From Chloroflexota bacterium (GTDB lineage Bacteria; Chloroflexota; UBA11872): a DNA stretch of 64,000 nt. Position numbers and translations under genes: made by a program. Location: the NCBI GenBank assembly GCA_026706485.1, contig JAPOYR010000013.1, forward strand, positions 62,001 through 126,000, written 5' to 3'. Shown piece after piece: positions 8,488 to 64,000 of the stretch. Within the stretch, counting starts at the first letter, position 1. Each line of letters begins with the position of its first letter. The notes beneath the pieces are model-generated. The model was given only the letters and a program-made list of their open reading frames with translations, was not told the DNA's origin and searched no databases.

Positions 8488-8995
8488 CCTCTCCCCCTTC
8501 TGGTCTCTACGGTCCCTTGGCGACACTCCGGCCGCCGATTCGGCGCTCAGCGTGGCGCCAACGAACAACTGACGCACGCATGTCCTCTGCTCCCACGCGC
8601 GCCGAATCTAGAGATACGCGAACTTGCCACAGTCTGAATGGATGGCGTCGCGAACATCACGCCGAATATTGCCATATGCATCCGGCGCTGTCTGCCCCCC
8701 ACTCGCGCGCCCGTGGCCACGAGCGCGCTACCGTCGAACTCCACCTGCTGGAAAAGCCTCCCTAGCGCTCGCAGCAGATGCTGCTTACGCAGCGGCCCAA
8801 CCGGCCCGTTGGCGGTTCGGGTGCCGACGATACCCCTAAGCGAATTCGCATGTCAACGGCGCGGGACGGGGCGGCGGCTTTCCGCGCGCCCCAGGCCTCG
8901 CGGCAGTATTTCCCGCTCCGCCGATCACTCGCGCTGCCGGGAATTGGCGAGTAGCATGCCGCGGTACCGCCTGCCCCCGCACGGTGGCTTGCCGC
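8488..8995. other. Divergent intergenic region (508 nt), no gene seen
   Basis: It separates the minus-strand importer operon from the plus-strand GH42-like gene and must hold promoters for both. The best minus-strand candidate is TTGACA (8856-8851) with TATCGT 18 nt further on (8832-8827). That would give a 5' leader of about 340 nt, so I treat it as weak. A loose inverted repeat lies around 8661-8687. I see no confident plus-strand promoter. Confidence 0.4.
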
Positions 8996-45225: not shown

Positions 45226-45279
45226 TCTTGGACTGCGGCGCGGCCGCGCGGTGCAGGTCAGCCCAGGGAAGAGTACGCG

Positions 45280-47519: not shown

Positions 47520-47553
47520 GGGGACGACCGTCAGCTCCGCCGGCCGGAGGCGT

Positions 47554-49331: not shown

Positions 49332-49410
49332 CGGTCACATCCCCTGAGGAATCGTCGGCGCCTAATGGTTTCATGAATCGAGCCGTTAAGTCAATCAGCC
49401 CAATACAAAA

Positions 49411-49425
49411 GTTGAATTATTCAAC
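49411..49425 (-). promoter_or_regulatory. 7-1-7 inverted repeat, candidate Fur/Zur-family operator
   Basis: GTTGAAT-T-ATTCAAC is a perfect 7-1-7 palindrome, the spacing recognised by Fur-family repressors (Fur, Zur, PerR). A second overlapping dyad, TTCAA-CAA-TTGAA, covers 49420-49432. They lie 80-100 nt upstream of the metal-binding-protein start in an AT-rich patch, so metal-dependent repression of the operon is plausible. No regulator gene is in the window. Confidence 0.55.
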
Positions 49426-49519
49426 AATTGAATCCGTCACCCCCCAGCCTCACGGATTTGGCCAGTCCGGCGCTGGGTTGAAAGGCTCGGTATTCGTGGC
49501 GGCACATGCTGGTGACATC

Positions 49520-49548
49520 TTGACATCACCTAAGAGAGACATCACGAT
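49520..49548 (+). promoter_or_regulatory. Candidate promoter of the vapBC operon (possibly leaderless)
   Basis: TTGACA at 49520-49525 and CACGAT at 49543-49548 are 17 nt apart. Transcription would begin close to the VapB ATG (49555), and no Shine-Dalgarno sequence is present there. The stretch GGTGACATC-TTGACATCACC (49511-49530) has GGTGA/TCACC ends and may be the autoregulatory operator. The -10 match is weak. Confidence 0.35.
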
Positions 49549-49554
49549 GCCCTC

Positions 49555-49812
49555 ATGCGAACTACGCTGACGCTCGACGCGGACGTCGCCGACTTTCTGC
49601 GCGAGCAGGCCCGACTCCAGAACCGGCCGTTCAAGCAGGTCGTGAACGACACCTTGCGCCGAGGGATGTCGCCCGCGGCCGGCGAGGAACGCCCGGCCTA
49701 TCGGGTTAAGCCGCTCCGCGGCGGCTTCCGTCCCGGCGTGGATCCGCTCAAGCTAAATCAGCTCAACGACGAGCTGGAGACGCAGGAGTTCATCGGCCGG
49801 GACGGCGAGTGA
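49555..49812 (+). CDS. vapB: VapB-type antitoxin
   Basis: An 85-residue protein starting at ATG 49555 (MRTTLTLDADVADFLREQARLQNRPFKQVVNDTLRRGM), a ribbon-helix-helix DNA-binding domain. A Pro/Arg-rich linker follows, then an acidic tail (LNQLNDELETQEFIGRDGE) that should embrace the toxin. Its stop overlaps the VapC GTG start by 4 nt (GTGA). It would repress its own promoter together with VapC. Confidence 0.87.
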   Translation: MRTTLTLDADVADFLREQARLQNRPFKQVVNDTLRRGMSPAAGEERPAYRVKPLRGGFRPGVDPLKLNQLNDELETQEFIGRDGE

Positions 49813-50234
49813 TCGTTCCGGACCTGAACCTGCTGCTCTACGCCTACAACGACGGCGCGCCCTTCCACGACGCGGCCCGACGGTGGTGGGAAGCGTCGGT
49901 CAACGGGACGGAGCGGGTCGGGGTGCCGTGGGCGGTGTCCACCGGCTTCGTCCGGCTCATGACCCATCCGCGGGTGCTCGCGGACCCCACCACGCCGACG
50001 ACGGCAGCGGGCTACGTGGACGAATGGTTCCGCGTGCCCAACGTCATTCCCCTGAACCCTGGCCGGGACCACCTCGCCCACTTCCGACGCTGCCTCGAAG
50101 CTGCGGGCGTCGGCGCCAACCTCGTGACAGACGCCCACCTGGCGGCCCTGGCCATGGAATACCAGGCGGAGCTGCACTCCACCGACACGGACTTCAGCCG
50201 CTTCCCTGGCCTCCGCTGGCGCAATCCACTCTGA
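49809..50234 (+). CDS. vapC: VapC-type PIN-domain ribonuclease toxin
   Basis: A 141-residue PIN-domain toxin starting at GTG 49809. The acidic metal site is visible as Asp5 (VPDLNLLLYAYN), Asp108 (NLVTDAHLAALA) and Asp126/128 (STDTDF). The PWAVSTGFVRLMTHPRV segment is typical of this VapC subfamily. It cleaves RNA, commonly tRNA or 23S rRNA in the family, when free of antitoxin. The module appears intact. Confidence 0.9.
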   Translation: MIVPDLNLLLYAYNDGAPFHDAARRWWEASVNGTERVGVPWAVSTGFVRLMTHPRVLADPTTPTTAAGYVDEWFRVPNVIPLNPGRDHLAHFRRCLEAAGVGANLVTDAHLAALAMEYQAELHSTDTDFSRFPGLRWRNPL

Positions 50235-50546
50235 GGCGGCCTCGGAACAACTCCTCGGTCATCCCCGCGCCCAATCCGTCATTTCCGCGAAGTAGACCCT
50301 TGCGTAGCCCTTCGTCATTCCCGCGACGGCGGGAATCCACCCGTCATTGAACCTGAGGGCGGATAGGGTTCGCCCCCTCATCCTCGAGCTTGGCCGGGCT
50401 TTGCAAGAGTCACCGAAGGCGGGAATCCACGCCCGTTCATGGTTCGACACGCCCACCATGAACGGGCAGATGCCCCTCCGTCCTTCAGGCGTCCGACGGA
50501 ATCCAGAGCCGCTCACCCTTGCCGTGTCTGCATGTACCGTTGAAGC
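50235..50546. repeat. Intergenic repeat accumulation after vapBC
   Basis: 312 nt with no credible gene. It contains several degenerate copies of the CGTCATTCCCGCG...GGGAATCCAC element (50311-50340 complete; fragments near 50275, 50425 and 50487). Nested insertions or recombination among copies probably built the segment. Confidence 0.6.
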
Positions 50547-50777
50547 ATGTCGCGCACCACCTTCGATATCGACGAAGAGGCCTCTGCCGAGGTAATGCGG
50601 CGCTATCGACTCGCCACCAAGCGCGAGGCGATCAACTACGCGCTGCGGACGCTGGCGGCCGAACCACTATCCGTTGTCGAGGCCCGAGCGCTTCGCGGGA
50701 TCGGCTGGGAAGGTGATCTCGACGACATGCGCTCCAACTGTCAATCAATATCATTTCGAGCGCAGCGAGAATTCTGA
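50547..50777 (+). CDS. Orphan VapB-like antitoxin with repeat-derived C-terminus
   Basis: A 76-residue protein with a canonical VapB N-terminus and core (SRTTFDIDEEASAEVMRRYRLATKREAINYALRTLAAEP) and the usual terminal motif GIGWEGDLDDMRS. Instead of stopping, it continues with NCQSISFRAQREF, encoded by the interspersed CATTTCGAGCGCAGCGAGAA element, whose TGA ends the frame. No VapC follows in the next 115 nt. Likely a remnant of a second vapBC module whose toxin was lost when the repeat inserted. Confidence 0.7.
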   Translation: MSRTTFDIDEEASAEVMRRYRLATKREAINYALRTLAAEPLSVVEARALRGIGWEGDLDDMRSNCQSISFRAQREF

Positions 50778-50892
50778 AGGCGCTCATCGCTTGCCGCGCC
50801 ACAGGCATTCGGCAGCCGCGACGACGAGTCACGATCAACCGCGCAGCGCCGAGTAAGATCCTTCGACTCTGAAGTCCTGACCTGTCGAGCCT

Positions 50893-51366
50893 CTACTCGT
50901 CCCCGTCCGACGTGTCCTCGCCCGCCAGGGCCGTGCTCTCCGCGAAGACCTTGAACGATTCCATGATCTTGAGCGACTGGCGCTTGAACAGCGGACGCAT
51001 GAACCATGCGGCAACGCGCATGACGCCGCCGAACTCGAAGACGTTGTGCGCGATCCACTGGGTAGCGTTGGGGCCGTCTTCGACGAACCAGTTCTCGATG
51101 ACGTTGCGCACGCCCTCGGTTTCATAGGTGCCGCTGATCTCGTCCGGCAGGTTGTAGCGTGTGAGCGTTTCGATCATGTCGAACGTCGTGCCGTTGTCGC
51201 GCGCGAAGGTCAGGCGCGACGTGGCGCCGGGCTCTCCGGGCGTGCCGCTGACGTGCTCGAAGCTCTGCAGGCCCTCCATCCACTTGAGCATGTTGTCGGG
51301 GTCGTCGAACAGCTTGACCATCGGCTCGCGCGCCACATTAATGACCAACTTGCAGGTGTACTTCAC
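50893..51366 (-). CDS. SRPBCC superfamily (START/polyketide cyclase-like) protein
   Basis: A 157-residue protein with the helix-grip pattern: MKYTCKLVINVAREPMVKLFDDPDNMLKWMEGLQSFEHV, TFDMIETLTRYNLPDEISGTYETEGV and a long C-terminal helix (LFKRQSLKIMESFKVFAEST). The family binds hydrophobic ligands. It lies 40 nt downstream of the methyltransferase gene on the same strand and may be cotranscribed. Ligand unknown. Confidence 0.85.
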   Translation of the reverse strand: MKYTCKLVINVAREPMVKLFDDPDNMLKWMEGLQSFEHVSGTPGEPGATSRLTFARDNGTTFDMIETLTRYNLPDEISGTYETEGVRNVIENWFVEDGPNATQWIAHNVFEFGGVMRVAAWFMRPLFKRQSLKIMESFKVFAESTALAGEDTSDGDE

Positions 51367-51406
51367 ATAACAATCCCAGGTCGGCGACGGACCATGCTAC
51401 CGCGGG

Positions 51407-52225
51407 TCAGCGCTGCACCGTGAAGCGGATCGCGCTCTTGGGAAGGCGCAGCACGCCGTGGCGGTCGATCTCGCGCTGGATCAGATCGGACATCTCAAGC
51501 GCGATCGCGGCGCGGTGGCTGTTGTCCGTGGGGCGGTCGGCGATGGAGTCGATGGGCCCCGTCGTGTAGTAGCGCAACGCGTCGTCCGCGGTCGGAAACA
51601 GGAAGGCGTCGTCCCAGGTGTCGAGCCGGCAGTGCGCGAATTCGGAGGCGACGATGCGCTCGTCCAGCTCGGTGAACCGCAGCGTGCGCCGCGGACGCGG
51701 CGAATAGCCCGCCGCCCGCGCGGCCAGGCCGTGCAGCTCGATCAGCACCGCCTGGCTGTCCGAGGCGTTGGTCGTCAGCACGGCACGGCCGCCCGGCCGC
51801 AGCACGCGCCAGATTTCGCGCAGGGCCAGCGCTAGGTTCGGCACGTGAAAAAGCACGTAGTTGGCGAAGACGCGATCCATAGAACCGTCGGCAATGGGAA
51901 GTGCCTGGAGATCACCGACGCCAAGGCCCAAAGGAAACCCCGTGCAACCGGGCCGCGGAGCCATTCCCACCATCGCCGCCGAGCGGTCGATGCCGACGAT
52001 TCGAGCGCCGCGCCGCCGCAACTCATCGAAGCACGCCCCGTAGCCGCAACCCGCATCCAGCACGAGGTCGTCGGATCGCAGCGCCAGGCCGTCAACCACC
52101 CAGGCCATGAACGAATCGGCCCGCTCGGAGAAGCGCCGGTGGGCCTCGATGCGCGTTTGCAGGCGCGACGTGTCCGAGTACTGCTCGTGCAGCTGGGCGG
52201 CGTCGGCCGCCGTCTGGCCAGTCAT
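51407..52225 (-). CDS. Class I SAM-dependent methyltransferase
   Basis: A 272-residue protein from ATG 52223-52225 (MTGQTAADAAQLHEQY; another ATG lies 3 codons earlier). SAM motif I is VLDAGCGYGACFDEL, motif II VGIDRSAAMV, and the later motifs are DRVFANYVLFHVPN and LRPGGRAVLTTN. The Methyltransf_11 type methylates small molecules such as quinones, lipids or natural products. Upstream of the SRPBCC gene; substrate unknown. Confidence 0.9.
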   Translation of the reverse strand: MTGQTAADAAQLHEQYSDTSRLQTRIEAHRRFSERADSFMAWVVDGLALRSDDLVLDAGCGYGACFDELRRRGARIVGIDRSAAMVGMAPRPGCTGFPLGLGVGDLQALPIADGSMDRVFANYVLFHVPNLALALREIWRVLRPGGRAVLTTNASDSQAVLIELHGLAARAAGYSPRPRRTLRFTELDERIVASEFAHCRLDTWDDAFLFPTADDALRYYTTGPIDSIADRPTDNSHRAAIALEMSDLIQREIDRHGVLRLPKSAIRFTVQR

Positions 52226-52443
52226 GGCCTGCAAGCCACGGAATCTTCAGTCGCCGGCGTCAGCCGATCGCGGTCACGTCGGACGCTCATCCGTCGAGCG
52301 CGCCGGTCTTTACATTTACGCCCCACGGAGACTGCGCCTTCCCACAACGTCGAACGCAACGGTGGCTGGTGGCGAAGTGCGCCCAGTGCCCAGGCCGCGC
52401 GATTCTGCAATTATGGCCGCAGCGCGGACGGAGGAGGCTGACC

Positions 52444-53991
52444 ATGGCTGAGGGAACGCGAGTCGTCGTCATCGGCGCCGGGCACAACGGCCTCGTCGCC
52501 GCCGGCTACCTGGGGCGGGCCGGCCTGGACGTGCAGGTCCTGGAACGCCGGGACGTCGTCGGCGGAGCGGCGGTCACCGAGGAGTGGTTTCCCGGCTTCA
52601 ACATCTCCACCTGTTCCTACGTCTGCCACATCCTGCAGCAGAAGGTCATTGACGAGCTCGAGCTGCGCCGTCACGGTTTCCACGTCTACCCCATCGACCC
52701 GTCGCGCGTCCATCCCCACCCCAATGGCACGGCCCTGACGCTTTGGCACGACGACGAGCAGACGGTCGAGGAGATTCGCAAGATCTCGCCCGAGGACGCC
52801 GACGCCTGGATGGATTGGGCCGACTTTTGGCATCGCGCCGTCGGCATCCTCAGCGACTATTACCTGCGCCCGCCGCCCTCGCTGGCCGAGCTTTCCGAGA
52901 GGTTTCGCCGCGAGGGCGAGGAGGAGTTGCTCGAGACCCTGCTGACCGTCCCGTTCAGAGACCTGATCGAGCAGTATTTCGTTTCGGACCAGGTCAGGGC
53001 GGCGATGAGCACCAGCACGTGGGACATGGGCGACATCAGCGCGCCGGGCAGCGCCTACATCACGGCGCTCTACCGGTTCAGCGCGTTCCGGGAGGACACG
53101 GAAAACTACGGCATCGTCCGCGGCGGCATGGGCGGTATCACCCAGGCGCTAGCCCGCTCCGCCGAAGCAGCGGGCGTGTCGATCAGGACCGGCGCCGAGG
53201 TGCGGCGCATTTTGGTCGAGCGAGGTCGCGCCGTGGGCGTCCAGCTGCACGATGGGGAGGTGGTCGAAGCCGACGTCGTGCTGTCGAATGCGGATCCCAA
53301 GCGGACCTATCTCAAGCTGTTGGAGGAGACCGACCTGGATCCGGGCTTTCGCGAGGCGGTCGAGGCGCTGAAAACCGAATCGGCCTCGGCCAAGTTCCTG
53401 TGCGCGCTGCGCGAGCTGCCCGATTTCTCCGCCTATCTGGGCGACGACTATGACCCCAAGCACCTGGCGATGATCAATCTCTGCCCGTCGCTAGAGAATC
53501 CTCAGCGCAGCTGGAACGATGCCAAGCACGGGCGCGTGCCCACCACGCCGATCGTGCAGGTCCAGATTCCGACCGTCTACGACCCGACGATCGCTCCCGA
53601 AGGCCGCCACATCCTGTCGATGTGGGTCTTCTTCGTCCCGCCGCACATCAAGGACGGCTCCTGGTCGGACATGCGCCAACCGTTTGGCGAGTGGCTGATC
53701 GACGAGCTGACCGCCTACGCGCCGAACTTCAGGGACGCGATCATCGACTGGACGCTGTTGACGCCGGAAGACATCGAGGAGCGCATTGGCCTCACCGACG
53801 GCAACATTCGGCACATCGATCTCATTCCGCAGCAAATCCTCTCGCGTCGACCGCTGCCCGGGTGGTCCGACTACCGCACGCCGATCGAGGGTCTCTTCCT
53901 CTGCGGCGCCGGCACGCATCCCGGCGGTGAGGTGACCGGCGCGCCAGGGCACAACGCGGCGCACGTGGTGTTGGAGCAACTGAGCCGGTAA
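52444..53991 (+). CDS. FAD-dependent phytoene-desaturase-like oxidoreductase (PYROXD2/CrtI-like)
   Basis: A 515-residue flavoprotein from ATG 52444 (frame open upstream but non-coding). The FAD fold is VVVIGAGHNGLVAAGYLGRAGLDVQVLERRDVVGGAAVTEEWFPGF. Mid-protein GGMGGITQALARSAEAAGVSIRTGAEV and the C-terminal GLFLCGAGTHPGGEVTGAPGHNAA are characteristic of the CrtI/PYROXD2 group. No carotenoid genes are adjacent, so a carotenoid role is not supported. It probably oxidises an unidentified amine, lipid or isoprenoid. A strong hairpin follows the stop. Confidence 0.88.
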   Translation: MAEGTRVVVIGAGHNGLVAAGYLGRAGLDVQVLERRDVVGGAAVTEEWFPGFNISTCSYVCHILQQKVIDELELRRHGFHVYPIDPSRVHPHPNGTALTLWHDDEQTVEEIRKISPEDADAWMDWADFWHRAVGILSDYYLRPPPSLAELSERFRREGEEELLETLLTVPFRDLIEQYFVSDQVRAAMSTSTWDMGDISAPGSAYITALYRFSAFREDTENYGIVRGGMGGITQALARSAEAAGVSIRTGAEVRRILVERGRAVGVQLHDGEVVEADVVLSNADPKRTYLKLLEETDLDPGFREAVEALKTESASAKFLCALRELPDFSAYLGDDYDPKHLAMINLCPSLENPQRSWNDAKHGRVPTTPIVQVQIPTVYDPTIAPEGRHILSMWVFFVPPHIKDGSWSDMRQPFGEWLIDELTAYAPNFRDAIIDWTLLTPEDIEERIGLTDGNIRHIDLIPQQILSRRPLPGWSDYRTPIEGLFLCGAGTHPGGEVTGAPGHNAAHVVLEQLSR

Positions 53992-53996
53992 ACGGG

Positions 53997-54032
53997 GAAG
54001 CGCCGCGACCTGTTGCGGGGTCGCGGCGCTTC
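53997..54032 (+). terminator. Strong stem-loop after the CrtI-like gene
   Basis: A 14-bp perfect stem (GAAGCGCCGCGACC with its complement, 53997-54010 and 54019-54032) around an 8-nt loop, starting 5 nt after the stop codon. The downstream sequence is GTTGCGCC, not a U-run, so termination may be Rho-assisted or the stem may protect the mRNA end. Confidence 0.65.
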
Positions 54033-55059
<1,027 letters not shown>

Positions 55060-55096
55060 ATGGCGACCAGTATAGGCGAGTCTGACCCCGGCCCGG

Positions 55097-55999
55097 CTAG
55101 ACGAGCCTTCGTTCGGGGTCGAGGGCCTCTCTGACCGGTTCCCAGGCCTCGGAAGGCGGCGCGGTCTCCGGTGGGCGGTCGATTGCCGCCCAGCCGCCGC
55201 GACCCTGAATCTCGGCCTTCACGGCATCCGCCGTGTGCCGGTCCGGACAGCCGATGATGGCGCGGGCGCCGTCGGGGCTGACGACCCGTGGCACCGCGGG
55301 GGCGATGTCTTCCCAGTCGGCCTTACTCCATCCTGACGGCAATCCCTCGGCGCGCACGTCGACGGGCGACGCAAGCACCTGGCTGAATTCCGTACTTGCG
55401 TCGGCGTCGATCGAATCACCCGGCACGGCATGGCGCAGGCGCAGCGTCACCTCGACGAGAGCGCCCAGGCGTCCGGCGGAGCCCCACATGGCGTGGGTGA
55501 GCCCATATCCAGCCGAGAATTTGACCGTGGCGCCCCCGACGTGAATGGTCTCGCCGGCGGCCAGCACCACCGTGGCGCCCAGGATCCAGCGTCGCGCCGG
55601 CGCGTCATCCTCGCGCACCGCCGATCCGCGACCGGACGCGATCAGCCCGCCCACGGTCCCGCCCGGCTCCAGACGCTCGACCGGCCACACCAGCCCATGC
55701 TCCCGAAGGCGTTGCCGCAAATCGGCAAGCGTGACGCCGGCCTGGACGCGCGCGATCAGGTCGAGCGGCTCGATCTGGAGCTCAGTTAGGGCAGCGGTCG
55801 AGACCGTGAGCGCGTTGGGCGGTGGTGGCGGCGTGCGCGAGTCCAGGCTCTGCGTGCCGACGATGCGCACATGGCGGGCCTCGGCCAGCGCGGCGGCCAG
55901 CGCGGCTATGGTGGGCGGCGTCAGATCGGCCGGCGGATGGCGCATGCGGGCAAAGGGTAGCGCGAGGGCCGTCCACGGCCCAGAATCGGCCATGAGCAT
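55097..55999 (-). CDS. FAD-binding (PCMH/GlcE-type) oxidase subunit-like protein
   Basis: A 300-residue protein from ATG 55997-55999 (another ATG at 55991-55993). The FAD_binding_4 signature is clear: LIARVQAGVTLADLRQRLREHGLVWPVERLEPGGTVGGLIASGRGSAVR, then WILGATVVLAAGETIHVGG and FSAGYGLTHAMWGSAGRLGALVEVTLRL. Length and motifs match the glycolate oxidase GlcE subunit, but no glcD or glcF is present in the window. It diverges from murT with 36 nt between starts. Confidence 0.82.
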   Translation of the reverse strand: MLMADSGPWTALALPFARMRHPPADLTPPTIAALAAALAEARHVRIVGTQSLDSRTPPPPPNALTVSTAALTELQIEPLDLIARVQAGVTLADLRQRLREHGLVWPVERLEPGGTVGGLIASGRGSAVREDDAPARRWILGATVVLAAGETIHVGGATVKFSAGYGLTHAMWGSAGRLGALVEVTLRLRHAVPGDSIDADASTEFSQVLASPVDVRAEGLPSGWSKADWEDIAPAVPRVVSPDGARAIIGCPDRHTADAVKAEIQGRGGWAAIDRPPETAPPSEAWEPVREALDPERRLV

Positions 56000-56035
56000 C
56001 GGACGAATGGTCGCGCGGCGATCGGTTGCCGGATC

Positions 56036-57430
56036 TTGAGACGACGGATCCAACGCGCAGCGGCGACGACGGCCGCGCGCGCGGCGGCCGCCGTGTCCCG
56101 TTTGACGCGACGCGGCGGGGGAACCGCGATCAGTGGGCTCGTGGCCCAGGCCGTATGGCCGCACTATGTGCCCGATGGCCTCAACAGCCTGTCGCGGCTG
56201 GTGCTCGTCAGCGGCACCAATGGCAAGACCACGACCACGGCGCTGATCGCGGCGGCGTTGCGCGCGGCGGGTCACGAGGTCTGGACGAACCCGACCGGAT
56301 CGAATCTGGAACGCGGCATCGCCGCGGCGCTGGCGCGACGCGCCGCGTGGCATGGCGGACAACGTCGCGAACGGTCGGCGGTTGGCGTATTCGAGGTGGA
56401 TGAATGGGCGCTCGCGTCCCTGCTGCCGCGCCTATCGCCGACGCTTGTGGTGCTGTTGAACCTGTTTCGCGATCAGCTCGACCGCTACGGCGAGATCGAC
56501 ACGACCGCCGGCGCCTGGCGCCAGGTCGTTGCCGGGCTGCCCGACACGACAACCGTCCTCGCCAACGCCGACGATCCACTGGTCGCGTCGGTGGCTGAGG
56601 CACACCCCGGGCGCGTCGATTGGTTCGGCAGCGACCGCCTGGGCGCGGCGGCCGACCTGGACCCCTGGGCCGACGTTCGCGGCTGTCCCACGTGCGGTGA
56701 GCCGCTGGTCTACGACGCCGTCGCCTTTGCGCACCTGGGCCGCTGGCGCTGTCCGACCGGCGACCTCGTGCGCCCTTCGCCCGACGTGGCCATCGCGGCC
56801 GCCCAGCCCCGCGGAGTCGACAGGTTGGCGCTGACACTCACCGCCGACGGCTGGCAATGCGAGGCGGATGTGCCGCTGCCGGGGCTCTACAGCGCCTACA
56901 ACGTCGCCGCCGCAGTCGCCGCCGCACGGGCCCTCGGCATTGGACCGGCGCAGGCGCTGGACGCGGTGGCCCAAACCGGTCCGGCCTTTGGCCGCGCGGA
57001 GGTAATCCCGACTCCGCACGGGGAGATCGTGCTGCTGCTCACCAAGAATCCCACCAGCGCCAATCAGGTGTTGGACCTGCTAGCCGCCGAGCCGGAGCAG
57101 CTGGATACGCTGGTGCTGCTGAACGACGGCGTCGCCGACGGAGAGGACGTCTCGTGGATCTGGGACGTGGAGTTCGAACGCCTGCGACCGCGGCGGCTCA
57201 CGCTCGGCGGTCGACGGGCCCATGACCTGGAGTTGCGCGTGAAGTACGCCGGGGTCCAGCCGTTGGACGGAAGCGTCGCCGTCGAGCCGGGCATCGCCAA
57301 ACCGCTCGACCGGGCGCTGAGCCGCGCCGACGGGCGGATGGCGGTCGTGGCCACCTACACCGCAATGCTGGACGTGCGCGCCGTGTGCGTCGCGCGGGGT
57401 TGGACGACCCCGTACTGGAGCGACGCGTGA
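56036..57430 (+). CDS. murT: Lipid II isoglutaminyl synthase, MurT (Mur ligase-like) subunit
   Basis: A 464-residue Mur ligase-like ATPase starting at TTG 56036. An N-terminal extension precedes the ATP motif VSGTNGKTTTT (residues 58-68). Further along are FEVDEWALASLLPRLSPTLVVLLNLFRDQLDRYGEID, a MurT-type cysteine insert (CPTC...RCP), and a C-terminal DUF1727 domain (LLLTKNPTSANQVL, LLNDGVADGEDVSWIWDVEFE). It activates the D-Glu carboxylate of lipid II for amidation by GatD. Its stop overlaps the GatD start (GTGA), matching the conserved gene pair. This indicates an amidated peptidoglycan. Confidence 0.93.
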   Translation: MRRRIQRAAATTAARAAAAVSRLTRRGGGTAISGLVAQAVWPHYVPDGLNSLSRLVLVSGTNGKTTTTALIAAALRAAGHEVWTNPTGSNLERGIAAALARRAAWHGGQRRERSAVGVFEVDEWALASLLPRLSPTLVVLLNLFRDQLDRYGEIDTTAGAWRQVVAGLPDTTTVLANADDPLVASVAEAHPGRVDWFGSDRLGAAADLDPWADVRGCPTCGEPLVYDAVAFAHLGRWRCPTGDLVRPSPDVAIAAAQPRGVDRLALTLTADGWQCEADVPLPGLYSAYNVAAAVAAARALGIGPAQALDAVAQTGPAFGRAEVIPTPHGEIVLLLTKNPTSANQVLDLLAAEPEQLDTLVLLNDGVADGEDVSWIWDVEFERLRPRRLTLGGRRAHDLELRVKYAGVQPLDGSVAVEPGIAKPLDRALSRADGRMAVVATYTAMLDVRAVCVARGWTTPYWSDA

Positions 57431-58179
57431 CCGCCGACGGACCGACCCTGCGGCTGGCGTACCTCTATCCGGACCTGATGAATCTCTACGCGGACCGGGG
57501 CAACGTGACGTGTCTGCAGCGGCGCTGCGCCTGGCGCGGCATCGAGCTCCGCGTGACGACGGTGGCCTGGGGCGATTCGCTGGACGAGCCGCAGGACATC
57601 TACGTGATCGGCGGCGGGCAGGACCGGCAGCAGCGAGCCGCTAGCGAGGGCCTGTCGCGGCGGCATGCCGACCGCATCGGACGCGACGTCGCCGACGGCG
57701 CCGCCATGCTGGCCGTGTGCGGCGGCTATCAGCTGATGGGGCGGTCCTATCGCGACGCCGACGGCACCGTCATGCAGGGACTTGGCATCTTTGACATGGA
57801 AACCGTTCACCCCGGGCCCAAGGTGGCGCGCTGCATCGGCAACATCGCTTGCCGGTGGGAGGGCGCGCACCTGATCGGGTTCGAGAACCACGGCGGACGG
57901 ACCTATCTGGGCGCCGGCGCGCGACCGCTGGCCGCGGTCGTCAAGGGGTTCGGCAACAACGGCAAGGACGGCGGCGAAGGGGCTGTGGCGGGTGCTGCCA
58001 TCGGCACGTATATGCATGGGGCGTTGTTGCCGAAGAACCCGCACCTGGCCGACCACCTGCTCGCCATGGCGCTGCGGCGGATGGCCCCTGAGTACACGCT
58101 GGGGCCACTCGATGACGACGTCGAGTGGCGGGCCCATCGGACCGCGCTGCGGATCGTCGGGGTGTCGGGGCGCCGCTAG
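57427..58179 (+). CDS. gatD: Lipid II isoglutaminyl synthase, GatD glutamine amidotransferase subunit
   Basis: A 250-residue class I (CobB/CobQ-like) glutaminase from GTG 57427, overlapping murT by 4 nt. The nucleophile is Cys98 in LAVCGGYQLMG and the catalytic His is in GTYMHGALLPKNP. Typical GatD segments are LYPDLMNLYADRGNV, YVIGGGQDRQQ and GFENHGGRTYLG. It supplies ammonia to MurT to convert D-Glu of the stem peptide to D-isoGln. Its 3' end overlaps the convergent hydrolase gene at CTAG. Confidence 0.93.
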   Translation: MTADGPTLRLAYLYPDLMNLYADRGNVTCLQRRCAWRGIELRVTTVAWGDSLDEPQDIYVIGGGQDRQQRAASEGLSRRHADRIGRDVADGAAMLAVCGGYQLMGRSYRDADGTVMQGLGIFDMETVHPGPKVARCIGNIACRWEGAHLIGFENHGGRTYLGAGARPLAAVVKGFGNNGKDGGEGAVAGAAIGTYMHGALLPKNPHLADHLLAMALRRMAPEYTLGPLDDDVEWRAHRTALRIVGVSGRR

Positions 58180-59111
58180 GCGGGCCGCGCTTCTTCACCG
58201 TCGTTCATGGCCGTCCGAATCGCTCCCGCCACGGCGTCCGGTTCGTCAAGCTGCACGGAATGCCCGGCGCCGGCAATTACCCGCAGGCGACCGTTGGGCA
58301 CACGCGCCGCGACCTCCCGGCCCAGCGCAACGGACAGCGTGCGGTCGCCGGCGCCCCAAAGGACCAGCACCGGCGCCTGCACGTCGGCCAGTTGCTCGCG
58401 CAGGTCGTCGACCGGTGGCTGGATGTAGCCGTCGCGGATGCCATCCAGGAAGCCGGGCGTTTGGGTCTGGCGGTAGAGGTCGTCTACGCGGCCGCGTGGC
58501 AATCGGTGGGGGCGGGTCATCTGCTGCCGCTGACGCCACGCGAGCCACCTGCGGCTGAACATGCTGCGCTCGAAGAGCCACACCACCATCGGCCAGGTCC
58601 ACGCGTCGCGCGCCGGGTATGGGTCCGGCTCGCGGGCGAACGGCGCGACGAGGACCAGATTCCTTACCCGCGCCGGATAACGGCTGGCGAAGGCCAGCGC
58701 CGTCTGCCCGCCCATGGAGGCGCCGACCAGCGTCACCGCATCGAGGCACAAGGCGTCCAGCAGGTCCCGCAGCCACTCCGCGCGTCCCCACACGCCGGCG
58801 GGCACCGTCGTGCCCTTGGCCGAGCGACCGAACCCAGGCAGGTCCACCGCCACGCATCGAAAATCTTGGCCCAGGCGATCGATGACCGGATCCCACACGC
58901 CGGCCGTGCTCAGAAAGCCGTGCAGAAACACCACCGACGGGCCGTCGCCCGTCGTTCGCGCGTGGTAGGCCGCGCCGTCCACCTTGATGAATCCGGCCCC
59001 TTTGGCCGCGGGGCCGGCTGGCGTGGGCTCGCTGGGCGGTCGCAAGCGACGCCAGGCGGCAATCACCGCGGCGGCCGCCGCCAGCACCGCCGCAAGCACC
59101 ACCTGACGCAT
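58176..59111 (-). CDS. Membrane-anchored alpha/beta hydrolase
   Basis: A 311-residue hydrolase from ATG 59109-59111 with an N-terminal hydrophobic anchor (about residues 2-19, QVVLAAVLAAAAAVIAAW). Core motifs: FLHGFLST oxyanion region, VDLPGFGRS, nucleophile GASMGGQTA, acid in LWGAGDRT and His in GAGHSVQLDEP. It resembles epoxide hydrolase/haloperoxidase-like esterases; substrate unknown. It converges on gatD, sharing 4 nt at the stops. Confidence 0.86.
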   Translation of the reverse strand: MRQVVLAAVLAAAAAVIAAWRRLRPPSEPTPAGPAAKGAGFIKVDGAAYHARTTGDGPSVVFLHGFLSTAGVWDPVIDRLGQDFRCVAVDLPGFGRSAKGTTVPAGVWGRAEWLRDLLDALCLDAVTLVGASMGGQTALAFASRYPARVRNLVLVAPFAREPDPYPARDAWTWPMVVWLFERSMFSRRWLAWRQRQQMTRPHRLPRGRVDDLYRQTQTPGFLDGIRDGYIQPPVDDLREQLADVQAPVLVLWGAGDRTLSVALGREVAARVPNGRLRVIAGAGHSVQLDEPDAVAGAIRTAMNDGEEARPA

Positions 59112-59288
59112 CGGAAGTCCGCGGGCAACGTTACCTCGGCACGCTAGCACCTCCCGCCGGCGCGCGACCGACAGGCGCTCGCCGTGCCAACGCCTACACT
59201 GGAACCGAGTGAATTGGCCGTGGCCGCCGCCCAGTCACGGCCCCGAGGGTCCTGCGTGACACCGCCTCCAAGTGACGACGCTGCCGCC

Positions 59289-59777
59289 ATGCGTGACGCG
59301 CCCGGTGAGCGCCGCTCGCGCCGGTGGTGGTTGCGGCGGAGTTTTCTGCCGCCTCTCGTGGCCGCGCTTGGCGCCATCGGCATCGGCGCCGCCTGGCGTC
59401 TCGCCTGGACGCCTGCGGCGACGCGCTTCGGCGGCACGATTCGCGTGGGGCGGCCCGATGACTATCAGGTTGGCGAGTCGCGCCACTGGGCGGACGGCCA
59501 GTTCCACTTGGTGCGGCTTCCCGACGGATTCCTGGCGCTCTACGAGCGTTGTCCGCATCTGGGCTGCCCAATTCCGCCGCCGCGGGACGGCATATTCGAG
59601 TGCCGCTGCCATTTCTCGCGCTTCGCCCTCAGCGGCGAGCGGCTGACGGGACCCGCCGAGCGCCCGATGGATGTTTTTCCGGTTGGCCTCAGCGGCGAGG
59701 CGCTGGTGGTGCGCACTGGCCTTTCGGCCGTCCAACAGCGCGACGCCTACGACCCCAGCCAGGCGCTCCGGCCCTAG
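59289..59777 (+). CDS. Rieske [2Fe-2S] protein, membrane-anchored
   Basis: About 162 residues from ATG 59289 (in-frame GTGs at 59184 and 59256 are alternatives). A basic, twin-Arg-like N-terminus (RRSRRWWLRRSFLPPL) and one transmembrane segment precede a Rieske domain. The cluster ligands are Cys and His in ERCPHLGCPIP and Cys and His in CRCHFSRF; the second box lacks the usual proline-glycine context. Small for a bc1/b6f Rieske subunit, and no cytochrome b gene is adjacent. It may serve a complex encoded elsewhere or an arsenite-oxidase-like role. Confidence 0.82.
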   Translation: MRDAPGERRSRRWWLRRSFLPPLVAALGAIGIGAAWRLAWTPAATRFGGTIRVGRPDDYQVGESRHWADGQFHLVRLPDGFLALYERCPHLGCPIPPPRDGIFECRCHFSRFALSGERLTGPAERPMDVFPVGLSGEALVVRTGLSAVQQRDAYDPSQALRP

Positions 59778-59836
59778 CTCCGTGGCATGATGCGCGGCAA
59801 GTCGGTCGAACAACCGCGTGAGGAGCGTTTACCCGC

Positions 59837-60319
59837 ATGAGACACCCCTCCTATGACCCCGCCTGCGACGTGTGCCACGCCAATGCCGGCGAGGCCCCGA
59901 GCCCCGGCGGCGTGATCTTTGCCAACGACCTGTGGTTCGTGCGCCACACGCCCCCGCCGGCCCCGCTGGCGGGCTGGATGATGCTGCATCCCCAGCGCCA
60001 CGTGCAGGGCCCGGCGCACTTCACCGACGAGGAGACGGAGAATTTTGGACCGGTGCTGCGGCATCTCACGCGCACGCTCGAAGAGGTGACCGGCGCGCTG
60101 CGGATCTACGTCGTCGCGTTCGGCGAGAGCGTGCCCCACATGCACGCCCATCTGGCGCCGCGCTACGCCCAGATGCCGAACGACGCGGTGGCGTGGAGCC
60201 TCAGCGACACCTTTCGCCAGGTTGCCGGCGGCGAGCTGCCGGGCGCCGATCAAGGCGATGTCGACCGCATCATTGCGGACTACCGCGCGGCGTTGGAGGC
60301 CGATCCACCGCCGCGATAG
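59837..60319 (+). CDS. HIT family protein
   Basis: A 160-residue histidine-triad protein from ATG 59837. The catalytic motif is HMHAHLAPR. An N-terminal Cys pair (CDVC) and WMMLHPQRHVQGP fit the HIT fold. These are nucleotide hydrolases or transferases acting on AMP-linked substrates. It is the first of two HIT proteins in the window; the other (63416) has a different N-terminus. Confidence 0.88.
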   Translation: MRHPSYDPACDVCHANAGEAPSPGGVIFANDLWFVRHTPPPAPLAGWMMLHPQRHVQGPAHFTDEETENFGPVLRHLTRTLEEVTGALRIYVVAFGESVPHMHAHLAPRYAQMPNDAVAWSLSDTFRQVAGGELPGADQGDVDRIIADYRAALEADPPPR

Positions 60320-60380
60320 GTGTGGCGTCTCCGGCCTCCGTGTTTACATAAGTCGCGTAACCGCTTCCGGCTCCCGAGTC

Positions 60381-60407
60381 CGTCATTCCCGCGGAGGCGG
60401 GAATCCA
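60381..60407. repeat. Interspersed CGTCATTCCCGCGGAGG repeat
   Basis: The cleanest copy of the family: CGTCATTCCCGCGGAGGCGG followed by GAATCCA, containing the inverted repeat TTCCCGC/GCGGGAA. It lies between convergent genes (HIT and DUF402). Related copies are at 24462, 32244 and 50311. Confidence 0.7.
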
Positions 60408-60461
60408 CCCCTGGCTTTCGAGACGCCAGGCGCGAGCTGGGTGCCGCAGGCTTCGGACCGA

Positions 60462-61487
60462 CTAGAACCACGACGCCGCGACGAATCGCGGCACGGTGAC
60501 GATGCCGCGCGAGGGAATGCCCAACCGTCGCAGTGCCTTGTCCAGTTGCATGGTCAGCGTCTGCTCGGACTCATCCAACGCCGCGTGGAACTCGGCCAGC
60601 GGATCCGCCTCGTCTTCCAGGGCCAGCGCCAGCGTCACCAGCGTGCGACCCCCATAGATGCCCAGGGCGGCGCGCGCGTGCGGCACCAGCCGGTCAAGCT
60701 CGTCCGGCGCTCCGGCGATGAGCACGCCATCCCGCGGCGGCGCGCTCTCCGGCAGCACCATCAGGGGATTCGCGGATGCTGCGTGCACCGAGACCGGGTC
60801 CAGGCGATCCAGCATGCGCTCGACCGACGAGCGTCCCGCGCCGTCGACGTCGCCGATCACCGCCAGCCCATCGCCCGCGCCGGGAATCAGCCAAAAGCGC
60901 GACTCCTCCGAGCCGTAAAGCGTATCTGAGGCGACCCGGCGGAACGGCGGACTCGCGGCCCTGATGTCGTCCACGATTGCGGCGATCTCCTGCCGTACGC
61001 GCTCGAAGTCCGCGGCAGGCAGCGCCGGTCGAGCGTGCACCAGCTCCGGAATGTCCGCGATGTGATAGGCGCCGTCGGGATACGCTTCGACGTCCACGAT
61101 CAAGTCGCGCCAGGTCACGACGCCGTCGCTGATCTCGACCGGTCGAATGACGTTCACGTACCAGTGCCGGCCCGGCGTCGGCAGCTCCATCACCTGGCGC
61201 CACGCGCCGCGCCGGTAGCGGTCCAGGCTGTCGTCCCGGCCGGACCACGAGGAGCCGTCGGCCATCCGGAACGTCGTGCCGGCGGGAACCGAAACACTGA
61301 ATTCCTCCGCCGTCACCTCGTGCACCTGCGCCCGGCACTCCCACTTGGGCGTGTCCGAATTCCACGGCAGCTTGCGCACGGTGACTTGCTGTCCCGGCCG
61401 AAGGCCGGGATGGGCGTCTGTCTCGCCGATCGAGAACTCCTTGCATGCGGCGACGTGCGGCACATCCGCCCGGCAGTCTAGGCGCAA
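60462..61487 (-). CDS. DUF402 domain protein with unique C-terminal region
   Basis: Up to 341 residues; an in-frame GTG at 61377-61379 would start right at the domain and is a fair alternative. Residues 40-155 match DUF402 (PKWECRAQVHEV, SWSGRDDSLDRYRRGAWRQVMEL, WYVNVIRPVEISDGVVTWRDLIVDVEAYPDG). Some members are nucleoside di-/triphosphatases. Residues 160-341 form an alpha/beta region with no family I recognise (ESRFWLIPGAGDGLAVIGDVDGAG, GVLIAGAPDELDRLVPHARAALG), about twice the usual protein length. It lies 27 nt downstream of the convergent ABC-F gene end on the same strand. Confidence 0.75.
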   Translation of the reverse strand: MRLDCRADVPHVAACKEFSIGETDAHPGLRPGQQVTVRKLPWNSDTPKWECRAQVHEVTAEEFSVSVPAGTTFRMADGSSWSGRDDSLDRYRRGAWRQVMELPTPGRHWYVNVIRPVEISDGVVTWRDLIVDVEAYPDGAYHIADIPELVHARPALPAADFERVRQEIAAIVDDIRAASPPFRRVASDTLYGSEESRFWLIPGAGDGLAVIGDVDGAGRSSVERMLDRLDPVSVHAASANPLMVLPESAPPRDGVLIAGAPDELDRLVPHARAALGIYGGRTLVTLALALEDEADPLAEFHAALDESEQTLTMQLDKALRRLGIPSRGIVTVPRFVAASWF

Positions 61488-61514
61488 CCGGACAGACGCT
61501 CGCGGAGGCCGCGG

Positions 61515-63131
61515 CTACACGAGATCCACGCGGCGCAGGTGACGTTCGTGGAAGGCTTCCAGGCGCTCCTCGGGCATAAGCAGCACCAGGTCGGGCTCAA
61601 GGCCGGCCACGAAGCCAACGTCATGGGAGACCACCACCAGCGCCGCCGCGTAGCTGCGCAGCGCTTCCACAAGCCAAGCCTGCGTGGTTTGGTCGAGGTT
61701 GCTGTTGGGCTCGTCGAGCAATAGGAGGTTGCGCCGCTGGAGCATGAGCCGGGCGATGGCGAGGCGCGCCCGCTCGCCGGCAGAGAGCGTGTGCAGCGGT
61801 CGAAAGATGTGGTCCTCATTGAACAGTAGGGTGGCGAGAAAGCCCCGAACGCCGCTCTCGGTGGGGCTGGTGAGCGGTCGAATGGCGTCGTAGGCGGATC
61901 GCGCCGCCAGCGCCGTATCGAGGGTGTGCGCGAAGTGAGCCGCGTCGACGTTGTGCCCGTGCGTCACGGTGCCCTGCCGGGCCTGCAGCTTGCCGGCCAG
62001 GATGTTGAGCAGGGTGGACTTGCCGGCGCCGTTGCGGCCAATGACCGCCAGCCGCTGGCCACGCTCCAGGGAGAAGCGAACCTGGTGCAGGACCGGCACG
62101 GTCCCGTACGCATGGGCGACGTCGCGCACGTCCAGCACTAGGCGTCCCGACCGCGGCGCCTGCCCGACGCGCATGCCGATCTCGCCCGGCTTGAGGGGCA
62201 GCTCGACCACCTGCTCGCGCATGCGATCGAGCCGGCGGTCCATGACCTTGACGCGGCGGGCGAGCTTTTCGCTCTTGAAGGCATGGGCGCGCAGCCGGTC
62301 GGTGGTAGCTTCGAAGCGCTTGATCTCGCGCTGCTGCCGCGCGTGGGTCGTCTCTAGCGTGGCCCGGCGCGCCTCGCTCCAGGCCAGGTAGTCGGAGTAG
62401 CCGCCCTTGAACTCCGTGAGTCTGCGCGACCGGCCATCGAGCTCGTAGACGCGCGATATGGCGTGGTCAAGCAGGCGCAGGTCGTGGGACACGATCAGCA
62501 CTGCCGCTTCGGTCCGAGCCAGAAAGTCCATGAGCCAGCGCGTGGCGTCAACATCGAGGTGGTTGGTCGGCTCGTCAAGCAGCAACAGGTCGGCGCCGCT
62601 GGCCAGCACGCGCGCCATCTCCAGCCGGGTGCGTTGCCCGGCAGACAGGGTGCGCACGGCTCGGCCCGCCAGGCCCGCCGGCAGCCCAAGACCGTTGAGC
62701 ACGGTGGCCGCGGTGGCATGTGCCGCGTAGCCGCCGGAATCGCGGAATTCCTCTTCGACGCGGCTGTAGGTCTCCACGGCGGCGTCAAGATCGGGACCGG
62801 CCGCGCCGGCGAGCGCTCGCTCGGCCTGGGCCAGCCGGCCGGCCAATGGTGCCGTGGGACCACTGGATATCACGACGTCGATGAGTGTTGCGTCGGGCGA
62901 CAGCGCGTCGGAGAGCTCCGGCTCCTGCGGCAGATGGCCGATGCGTCGCGGGCGAGCCACCCCTCCGGCGTCGGGGGGCAGGGTCCCGGCGGCGACGTGC
63001 AGCAGCGTGGACTTGCCGGCGCCGTTCACTCCGGCCAGTCCCACCTTCTCACCGCGCCCGACGAACAGCGACGCGCCGCGCAGGACCTCCTGGGGGCCCC
63101 AGGCGTATGAAAAGTTGGTGATGCTCAACAT
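61515..63131 (-). CDS. ABC-F family ATPase (ribosome-associated; possible ribosome protection)
   Basis: A 538-residue soluble protein with two ABC domains and no membrane segments. Domain 1: Walker A GVNGAGKSTL, signature LSAGQRTRLEMARVL, Walker B LLLLDEPTNHLD. Linker about 240-315 is basic and helical (RQQREIKRFEATTDRLRAHAFKSEKLARR). Domain 2: GRNGAGKSTL, LSAGERARLAIARLM, LLLLDEPNSNLD, where NSNLD replaces the usual TNHLD. The N-terminal domain lacks an arm insertion of EttA type. ABC-F proteins act in the ribosomal E site and either tune translation or displace antibiotics. The attenuator upstream favours the inducible resistance or stress type. Confidence 0.9.
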   Translation of the reverse strand: MLSITNFSYAWGPQEVLRGASLFVGRGEKVGLAGVNGAGKSTLLHVAAGTLPPDAGGVARPRRIGHLPQEPELSDALSPDATLIDVVISSGPTAPLAGRLAQAERALAGAAGPDLDAAVETYSRVEEEFRDSGGYAAHATAATVLNGLGLPAGLAGRAVRTLSAGQRTRLEMARVLASGADLLLLDEPTNHLDVDATRWLMDFLARTEAAVLIVSHDLRLLDHAISRVYELDGRSRRLTEFKGGYSDYLAWSEARRATLETTHARQQREIKRFEATTDRLRAHAFKSEKLARRVKVMDRRLDRMREQVVELPLKPGEIGMRVGQAPRSGRLVLDVRDVAHAYGTVPVLHQVRFSLERGQRLAVIGRNGAGKSTLLNILAGKLQARQGTVTHGHNVDAAHFAHTLDTALAARSAYDAIRPLTSPTESGVRGFLATLLFNEDHIFRPLHTLSAGERARLAIARLMLQRRNLLLLDEPNSNLDQTTQAWLVEALRSYAAALVVVSHDVGFVAGLEPDLVLLMPEERLEAFHERHLRRVDLV

Positions 63132-63164
63132 AGGTCTGGTCTGTTCCTTTTGATCCGCCCAAAC

Positions 63165-63204
63165 AAAAAACCGCGGACGATGTGGTGTGGTGGCCCGTCC
63201 GCGG
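63165..63204 (-). terminator. Intrinsic terminator in the ABC-F 5' leader (attenuator)
   Basis: On the minus strand a 9-bp perfect stem, CCGCGGACG (63204-63196) with CGTCCGCGG (63179-63171), encloses a 16-nt loop and is followed directly by TTTTTT (63170-63165). It lies between the leader ORF stop (63228) and the ABC-F start (63131), so it would stop transcription before the gene unless prevented. Confidence 0.88.
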
Positions 63205-63227
63205 CTGGCGTTGCTGGTGGTTGCCGG

Positions 63228-63323
63228 TCAGGTCGGAGGGCGCACTCCACCTAGGGCAGCCCGGCGCACGGAGCAGCGGCGCCGCAATTCGGGTCGGACG
63301 GTGGGAACGATTAATCCGCGCAT
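63228..63323 (-). CDS. 31-residue leader peptide upstream of the ABC-F gene
   Basis: ATG at 63321-63323 and TGA at 63228-63230, inside the ABC-F leader and ending 24 nt before the terminator stem. The peptide starts MRGLIVPTVRPELRRRC, is Arg-rich and ends VRPPT. No ribosome-binding site precedes it, but the promoter would start transcripts within about 0-3 nt of the ATG, so it may be translated leaderlessly. A short translated ORF before a terminator is the standard set-up for drug- or stress-sensed ribosome stalling. Translation is inferred, not shown. Confidence 0.6.
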   Translation of the reverse strand: MRGLIVPTVRPELRRRCSVRRAALGGVRPPT

Positions 63324-63330
63324 GACTTTG

Positions 63331-63358
63331 AGCATAGGCACGCCCATTTCGCTGTCAA
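63331..63358 (-). promoter_or_regulatory. Sigma-70-type promoter for the ABC-F operon
   Basis: Minus strand: TTGACA (63358-63353), 16-nt spacer, TATGCT (63336-63331). The -35 is perfect and the -10 is 4 of 6. The predicted start of transcription is around 63323-63325, on or next to the leader ORF ATG. This is the best promoter match I found in the window. Confidence 0.75.
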
Positions 63359-63415
63359 GCCGACGTGGTGAGCGAGAGCGCTCGGCGCCGCGCGCCGTCA
63401 GGGCCATACTGACGC

Positions 63416-63901
63416 ATGGAAAACCGCTTGACCTACGCGCCACCGGGCTACGACTGCCCGTTCTGCCGCATCGCCCGCGGGGTGTTTGGCGGCCCGGTGC
63501 GCGGCGGCGCGGAAGCCGACGTGCTGCGGACGCCAGACGTGACGGCGTTTGTCGGCTCCCACTGGTGGCCGCGAAACGAGGGGTCGGTGATCGTGATCCC
63601 CAACGCCCACTACGAGTCGATATTCGACCTGCCCGCCGAGGCCGCGGCGCGGATTCACGCGGTGGCGCAGCGCGTCGCCGTGGCCATGACCCGCGTCTAT
63701 CGTTGCGAAGGCGTCTCCACGCGTCAGCACAACGGCCCCGGGGGCGGCCAGGAGGTCTGGCACTACCACCTCCACGTGTTGCCGCGGTGGCCCAACGACC
63801 AGCTCTACGAGCGCACGGCGGAACGCTTCAGGGCGCCGCCGGACGAACGGGCGCGGCGGGCCGCCATGCTGCGGGCCGCGCTCGACTCCGACCGCGGCTG
63901 A
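63416..63901 (+). CDS. HIT domain protein (histidine triad)
   Basis: A 161-residue protein from ATG 63416. N-terminal CPFC (with His-rich context) is the zinc pair of Hint/Fhit-like proteins. ETD-type nucleotide contacts are followed by VIVIPNAHYESIFDLP, and the catalytic triad motif is HYHLHVLPR. The QHNGPGGGQEVWHYHLHV block is typical. It likely hydrolyses nucleotide conjugates such as AppppA or AMP-lysyl species. It diverges from the ABC-F leader promoter, with about 60 bp between the promoter and its start codon. Confidence 0.9.
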   Translation: MENRLTYAPPGYDCPFCRIARGVFGGPVRGGAEADVLRTPDVTAFVGSHWWPRNEGSVIVIPNAHYESIFDLPAEAAARIHAVAQRVAVAMTRVYRCEGVSTRQHNGPGGGQEVWHYHLHVLPRWPNDQLYERTAERFRAPPDERARRAAMLRAALDSDRG

Positions 63902-64000
63902 GCGCTGAGGCCAGGGCGGGCGTTCGCCCATCCCCGTCTCCGTGGGCGGCCAGGGTCTCCGACCCGCGGCGCCGCTGCGTCACAATGGCTGCCGCCGTTA

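Follow-up and report, generated by a model that had tools for sequence, protein, structure and literature searches.

A promoter, a leader ORF and a terminator precede an ABC-F gene

We analysed a stretch of 64,000 nucleotides (nt) from a Chloroflexota genome (assembly GCA_026706485.1, contig JAPOYR010000013.1, positions 62,001 to 126,000), here called the window, for a putative attenuator in front of a gene of the ATP-binding cassette (ABC) family ABC-F. All elements of the attenuator and the ABC-F gene itself lie on the minus strand, close to the right-hand end of the window:

63353..63358, minus strand: -35 box TTGACA (sigma-70-like scan and sequence reading)
63331..63336, minus strand: -10 box TATGCT, N16 behind the -35 box and 7 nt before the leader ATG
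63228..63323, minus strand: leader open reading frame (ORF) of 31 codons, MRGLIVPTVRPELRRRCSVRRAALGGVRPPT and a stop; its ATG (63323-63321) is the predicted transcript 5' end and its stop is TGA (63230-63228)
63171..63205, minus strand: intrinsic terminator hairpin, main arms CCGCGGACG (63204-63196) and CGTCCGCGG (63179-63171)
63165..63170, minus strand: T6 tract of the terminator (sequence reading), 33 nt before the ABC-F ATG at 63131
61515..63131, minus strand: ABC-F ATPase gene, 538 amino acids (NCBIfam, Pfam and structure model)

This promoter was the sole site found by a sigma-70-like scan of 60000-64000 (0.2 in shuffled sequence), and a scan of 45000-64000 again gave one site, against 1.3 in shuffles. 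The pattern TTGACA-N15-18-TANNNT occurs twice in the whole window where 0.16 would be expected; the other occurrence, TTGACA-N18-TATCGT at 8827-8856 (minus strand), has no ATG close behind. The terminator stem contains nine Watson-Crick pairs and two G.U pairs around a loop of 14 nt (-20.1 kcal/mol). A program scan of 60000-64000 listed no terminator, and it missed this one because only loops of 3-8 nt were allowed. Folding of the whole leader was unremarkable on its own (z -1.57, with 14 of 200 shuffles equally good), and single-leader folding as proof of an attenuator was dropped as uninformative. The leader ORF and the ABC-F ATG, 192 nt apart (63132-63323, minus strand), share a reading frame, and the TGA is the sole stop between them. 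This looks accidental, because in related genomes the two ATGs are 181, 196 or 197 nt apart.

The protein scored 334.1 bits against the NCBIfam profile ribo_prot_ABC_F, below the cut-off of 380. Pfam placed ABC_tran in two stretches together with the ABC_tran_Xtn linker, and the closest solved relatives by sequence were YbiT (266 bits) and PoxtA (256 bits). The structure model (predicted local distance difference test, pLDDT, 86.5; predicted template-modelling score, pTM, 0.70) matched, in Foldseek E-value order, PoxtA (template-modelling score, TM, 0.85), EttA crystal structures (TM approximately 0.4) and YbiT (0.84). Judged by sequence and model, the product is an ABC-F protein; with the profile score below its cut-off, we claim no antibiotic resistance (ARE) role for it.

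The leader is conserved in the family

The family comprises 19 genomes, six in the genus of the window and 13 in another genus. The ABC-F gene was found in 11 of them, 70-77% identical to that of the window and partial in G010 and G015; three of the eight genomes lacking it are less than 90% complete. Ten of the 11 upstream regions are readable, G015 having no upstream sequence, and the leader is present in nine of these ten. An earlier note on this DNA had proposed the layout of promoter, leader ORF, terminator and ABC-F gene, and both the layout on the minus strand and its recurrence in the family bear it out.

All nine leaders carry a TANNNT -10 box and the same 7-nt spacing from -10 to ATG, though the 7-mers themselves vary. 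Among the eight relatives the -35 box is TTGACG at N16 in three and GTGACG at N16-17 in two; the scanned forms are absent from the other three (G008, where ATGACG was read by eye, G009 and G011).

The ORF of 31 codons described in the earlier note is present in the window, and this undivided form is peculiar to its genome. In all eight relatives the ORF is divided: six codons, MN[GE]V[MVL][TGS], are followed by TAG and an immediate in-frame ATG. The second ORF has 19-24 codons and ends in RGV[CR]PLR before its stop. In the window the two are joined in a single ORF, ending in GGVRPPT before its stop. The final stop occupies one alignment column in all nine leaders, reading TGA in the window and TAG in every relative, and the G018 leader carries a 15-nt deletion that preserves the frame. 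The reading frame proposed earlier is thus retained in the alignment, but it is split in eight relatives and its variable columns show no third-position bias. For a specialist the most surprising feature may be this conserved six-codon ORF, predicted to be leaderless, with its immediate in-frame restart in 8/8 relatives. No run of codons for a single amino acid is conserved in the nine leader peptides; arginine is frequent.

The ORF end is predicted to compete with the terminator

RNAalifold applied to the nine leaders selected a competing pairing in preference to the terminator, in which the ORF end and stop pair with the terminator 5' arm. The corresponding features in the window are:

63234..63240, minus strand: antiterminator 5' strand CCCTCCG, in leader codons 28-30 (RNAalifold consensus of nine leaders)
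63194..63201, minus strand: antiterminator 3' strand CGGACGGG, overlapping the terminator 5' arm (RNAalifold consensus of nine leaders)
63231..63251, minus strand: predicted protector (anti-antiterminator) hairpin GGTGGAG/CTCC-G-ACC, from the minimum-energy fold of the window leader, with a putative role

In the relatives the strand at the ORF end, made up of the last codons and the stop, is CCCTCTGAGGTAGCG. Across the nine leaders 156 of 162 pair cells of the antiterminator consensus are standard pairs, and the most conserved block of the ORF (3 of 33 columns variable) coincides with the antiterminator. The nine terminator stem pairs counted are formed in 9/9 leaders; the inner two are U.G and G.U in the relatives, and C-G and G-C in the window. 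Terminator and antiterminator are mutually exclusive on paper, strongly in the relatives and more weakly in the window. The shared ending GV[CR]Px[RT] and stop may be due to this RNA pairing. A search of the leader against Rfam gave no family match (the one hit had E 4.7 and 13.6 bits, where the gathering score is 45).

Nascent RNA was modelled by ending the transcript just before the terminator 3' arm and blocking the ribosome footprint; six leaders of the genus of the window (G000x, G001-G005), which had been trimmed out of frame, were excluded, and the stop index of G018 was set five codons late, which leaves its profile unchanged. With the ribosome absent or within the first approximately 18 codons, the terminator 5' arm was sequestered in 9/9 leaders (mean 0.68-0.81 over nine bases). 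Sequestration dropped, unevenly, when the ribosome stood at the end of the ORF or slightly beyond it. In the complete RNA with an early ribosome the terminator was mostly off in seven of the eight relatives (G008 was mixed), and with the ribosome over the ORF end it was mostly on in six of the eight.

A second putative attenuator precedes a DrrA-like ABC gene

A covariance-model search beyond the ABC-F leaders returned four weak matches (E 0.033-0.54), two of which belong to a second attenuator. We searched 41 genomes of the class with the pattern CCGCGG-N12-40-CCGCGGTTTT. The 32 matches comprised the nine ABC-F leaders, G034, 18 further sites in the family and four sites that belong to neither group, namely a second site in G003 and one each in G030, G033 and G040. 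The backward pattern, used as a control, gave 16 matches in the 41 genomes, against 32. Because the control also matched, the weight of the second attenuator rests on its fixed gene context.

This second attenuator is found in 18/19 family genomes, 6/6 in the genus of the window and 12/13 in the other genus; the copy of the window's own genome (G000:C13:154083-154125, locus L275) lies outside the window. Sixteen of the 18 were read, each directly before an ABC ATPase gene, whose ORF was found by script in 15 of the 16 and with the same start by eye in G011. The best NCBIfam match of this ATPase is DrrA, over a 90-residue piece at 62.8 bits against a cut-off of 312, a match suggesting an exporter-like protein.

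With the -10 box taken to be the hexamer that follows the -35 box after 16 nt, the upstream ORF (uORF) of the second attenuator begins 40 nt behind the -10 box in 6/6 genomes of the window's genus (MG[TA]...GG[VLM]CP[EDN]R and a stop) and 50-54 nt behind it in the other genus, in 9/9 measured ([MV]R...TPA[MT]P[GS]R...[SG]SAV[PL] and a stop). It is shorter in G006. In the window's genus its ending, GG[VLM]CPxR before the stop, resembles the RGV[CR]PLR and GGVRPPT endings of the ABC-F leaders. Within the same genomes, then, the uORF of the second attenuator would be non-leaderless and that of the ABC-F gene leaderless.

The leader ATG has the spacing of a leaderless start

To place the 7-nt spacing, we took 864 kb of the genome to which the window belongs and scored the ATGs of ORFs with 120 or more codons by their offset behind TANNNT. 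Twenty-three (13 + 10) lay at 6-7 nt, against 7.7 expected from the neighbouring offsets 0-15 (P 6.5e-6) and 11.7 from all offsets 0-30 (P 2.3e-3). When a TTG-type -35 box was also demanded, 4 of 11 ATG matches were 6-7 nt behind the -10 box. Because ATGs, and hardly GTGs, cluster there, a 7-nt spacing is the expected look of a leaderless ATG in this genome. The unvarying spacing and the genomic ATG peak together indicate that the leader ORF is likely leaderless. In the available part of one survey, leaderless genes were detected by its method in four of 12 Chloroflexi genomes, in which they made up approximately 4.7% (PMC3160421).

Some other ABC-F genes of the phylum have different leader ORFs

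Across the phylum 81 ABC-F-like matches were listed; two (G015, G379) lie at contig ends without upstream sequence, and the remaining 79 upstream regions were scanned. A loose terminator scan flagged 21 of the 79, ten of which (the nine family leaders and G034) have the form CCGCGG...CCGCGGTTTTTT. G034, from another family, shows a related layout, with TATAAT, a GTG after 6 nt, an ATG after 9 nt and a terminator; folding gave no antiterminator in G034.

In family f21, conserved uORFs resembling MKRALPLAVYxAx with its stop lie far upstream of ABC-F-like genes and well downstream of the promoter at 8 of 22 loci searched (L153, L156, L161, L163, L164, L167, L170 and L171), and several follow an AAGG or AGGA, read by eye. 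Their variable columns by codon position 1/2/3 number 4/5/10, a coding signature, and MKRALPLAVYxAx is a candidate arrest peptide. Two f42 genomes (L132, L133) have uORFs, read by eye as MDAIGFVQASALPASDSRPD and MNAIGYLLTTGSPASDSRPD with their stops, upstream of ABC-F. They start 9-10 nt behind TACAAT, and are thus nearly leaderless, and end in PASDSRPD before the stop; a hairpin may form across their stop codon. ABC-F attenuation may be spread across the phylum with differing leader ORFs. A phylum-wide 'VCP' motif read by eye in leaders of other families was dropped, its frames and starts being inconsistent. In G006 of the window's family the ABC-F ATG lies 6 nt behind CACAAT (L016, bases just before 1501), and the ABC-F gene of this genome may itself be leaderless.

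A probable ribosome-mediated attenuator with a predicted leaderless leader ORF

We conclude that the leader is probably a ribosome-mediated transcription attenuator of classic design for the ABC-F gene, its ORF being translated from a leaderless mRNA. Transcription would begin at, or about one base from, the leader ATG, and a ribosome would load onto the 5' end while the RNA emerges. On reaching the stop it would cover the last codons, which form the antiterminator 5' strand; the terminator (63204-63171, with its T6 tract) would then fold and transcription would end. Were the ribosome delayed, for instance by an antibiotic that targets it, the end of the ORF would pair with the terminator 5' arm and transcription would read through. 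ABC-F protein would then be made and could relieve the ribosome, perhaps conferring resistance. Both the attenuator and the leaderless start had been proposed in the earlier note. The former gains from the conserved terminator, the competing antiterminator over the ORF end and the second attenuator of the same design. The latter, as a prediction, agrees with the 7-nt spacing in 9/9 leaders and with a genomic ATG peak at 6-7 nt that is nearly gone when GTG starts are added.

A further idea, which we regard as doubtful, is that leaderless initiation is part of the sensor, such that the switch would report 70S initiation, termination and reinitiation and not stalling at one peptide. In the relatives a ribosome would then have to initiate, terminate at the TAG and restart at once to reach the second ORF and the antiterminator strand. 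In the literature searched we found no description of such sensing for ABC-F control.

Several observations weigh against the leaderless attenuator, some of them favouring particular alternatives, with which they are given below. G006 has an ABC-F gene 77% identical to that of the window and lacks the leader, and G009 and G011 have no recognisable -35 box. Only 13 of the 18 consensus antiterminator pairs are formed in the window leader. In its nascent RNA the 5' arm is still 0.88 sequestered with the ribosome at the stop and is freed a few codons later. G010 and G011 show barely any switching at equilibrium. Untranslated RNA of the relatives should read through, which makes 'no translation' indistinguishable from 'stalled'.

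Initiation might instead not be strictly leaderless, with the start site some bases upstream or the internal ATG as the true start. The genome itself gives some grounds for this. Its leaderless peak is modest, offset 16 likewise holding 13 ATGs. Once GTG starts are counted as well, the numbers are 21 at offset 6 and 17 at offset 7; the near offsets 0-15 have 8-17, and offsets 16 and 25, with 27 each, exceed both. A cruder first count over predicted long ORFs found 5 of 279 at 6-8 nt and no excess; the -10-box scan replaced it after this negative outcome, and we think that the count failed because, at 68% G+C, starts lying far upstream predominate. The relatives have an internal ATG immediately behind the TAG. 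In the family's genomes the ORF of the second attenuator starts 40 nt (6/6) or 50-54 nt (9/9 measured) behind the -10 box, and in f21 the uORFs begin at some distance downstream of the promoter, several of them preceded by AAGG or AGGA. Against it, the usual start distance behind a -10 box leaves no space for a Shine-Dalgarno sequence, the -10-to-ATG spacing does not vary in 9/9 leaders and the first ORF is intact in 8/8 relatives. We consider a start that is not strictly leaderless unlikely.

We think it quite unlikely that the terminator responds to a metabolite or protein in the manner of a riboswitch, with the ORF a by-product of GC-rich sequence. On this account the best-conserved ORF block (3/33 variable) would be conserved as antiterminator, and indeed the codon positions show no coding bias: variable columns at positions 1/2/3 number 9/9/6 in the second ORF of the ABC-F leaders. 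The 9/9/6 pattern cannot show selection on the ABC-F leader peptide, and neither can the counts of 8/4/8 and 10/8/8 for the peptides of the second-attenuator uORFs. A conserved arrest peptide was likewise dropped, the variable columns having no third-position excess in either the ABC-F leaders or the second attenuators. However, the stop position is kept despite the change of stop codon, the 15-nt deletion is in frame and the ATG is placed as a leaderless start would be; the leader matches no Rfam family, and the downstream genes (ABC-F and the DrrA-like ABC ATPase) are of kinds known to be served by ribosome attenuation.

A weak constitutive promoter with a leaky terminator, giving a low basal level and no switch, would fit the window leader, where the terminator prevails at equilibrium for nearly all ribosome positions, but the antiterminator strands are kept in nine leaders and sequester the 5' arm in nascent RNA, and the same design recurs at a second locus, which makes this very unlikely. 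In the complete window RNA the terminator is dominant (0.99 free) at almost all ribosome positions, the exceptions being codons 18-19 (terminator 0.44 and 0.06). This dominance is in keeping with the extra protector hairpin predicted over the antiterminator strand, and the window version of the switch looks biased to off in these models.

Comparison with known attenuators

Short uORFs with an intrinsic terminator, a competing structure and an ABC-F target are described, in the excerpts available of the respective reports, for vmlR of B. subtilis, msrD of streptococci and lmrC of Streptomyces lincolnensis. The vmlR leader forms anti-antiterminator, antiterminator and terminator hairpins (PMC9226507), the ribosome stalls at the stop codon of the msrD leader peptide MYLIFM (PMC10314930), and lmrC, an actinomycete case, has a premature terminator (PMC8546547). 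According to the same excerpts, a Shine-Dalgarno sequence lies upstream of the vmlR uORF and a strong ribosome binding site serves that of msrD, whereas here the ORF stands at the predicted 5' end. The present system also belongs to another phylum, and no likeness to their peptides was seen.

Leaderless leader ORFs are known from amino-acid operons. Poly-cysteine uORFs of mycobacteria are reportedly a leaderless attenuator case, to go by a cited title. For ilvBNC of Corynebacterium glutamicum and trpL of Sinorhizobium meliloti, the accessible portions of the sources describe transcription attenuation with the ilvL ATG one base from the transcript start and the trpL leader ATG at it (PMC11857589, PMC7298713). 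As presented there, the ilvL/trpL type is tied to amino-acid operons, whereas the target here is an ABC-F gene, not a biosynthetic one, and no amino-acid run is conserved. The whiB7/wblC leader of actinobacteria is alike in pairing an antibiotic-responsive uORF with a terminator that controls resistance (PMC4128351, PMC13236596); in the sections of these papers that are available, a Shine-Dalgarno motif precedes the whiB7 uORF and the target is a transcription factor, unlike in the present leader.

In the openly licensed literature we found no report of a leaderless attenuator with an ABC-F target, or of any ABC-F attenuator in Chloroflexota; the attenuated ABC-F genes found, as far as the available text of the reports goes, are from Firmicutes and Actinobacteria. 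ABC-F attenuators and leaderless attenuators are known separately, and their combination would be the new part. The novelty suggested in the earlier note therefore holds for this combination in the literature found and not for leaderless attenuator ORFs as such, which the same amino-acid operons already provide in the accessible portions of their reports (PMC11857589, PMC7298713). Leaderless uORFs may have been overlooked because the uORF4u tool, in the part of its description available, has a step that looks for a Shine-Dalgarno sequence in front of prokaryotic uORFs (PMC10219788). If our reading is true, two attenuators operate in an uncultured family of Chloroflexota, a leaderless one for ABC-F and a non-leaderless one for a DrrA-like ABC gene. 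The two would form a natural pair for probing what 5'-end initiation contributes to ribosome sensing.

The locus is variable between close relatives

Comparison with the sister species G002 showed that the whole unit is missing from the corresponding place:

61398..63380: unit of gene, attenuator and promoter, absent from the corresponding place in G002

The gap between the DUF402 and HIT genes is 135 bp in G002 against approximately 1.98 kb in the window; in G004, G001 and G005 it is 804, 973 and 1516 bp, respectively, and G003 has no adjoining HIT match. No ABC-F homologue lies between DUF402 and HIT at that place in G001-G005. From these comparisons, the ABC-F gene and its putative switch seem to have been gained or lost together. 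The variable DUF402-HIT site (L283-L287) holds other ORFs in G001, G003 and G004, some of them RelE-like by eye.

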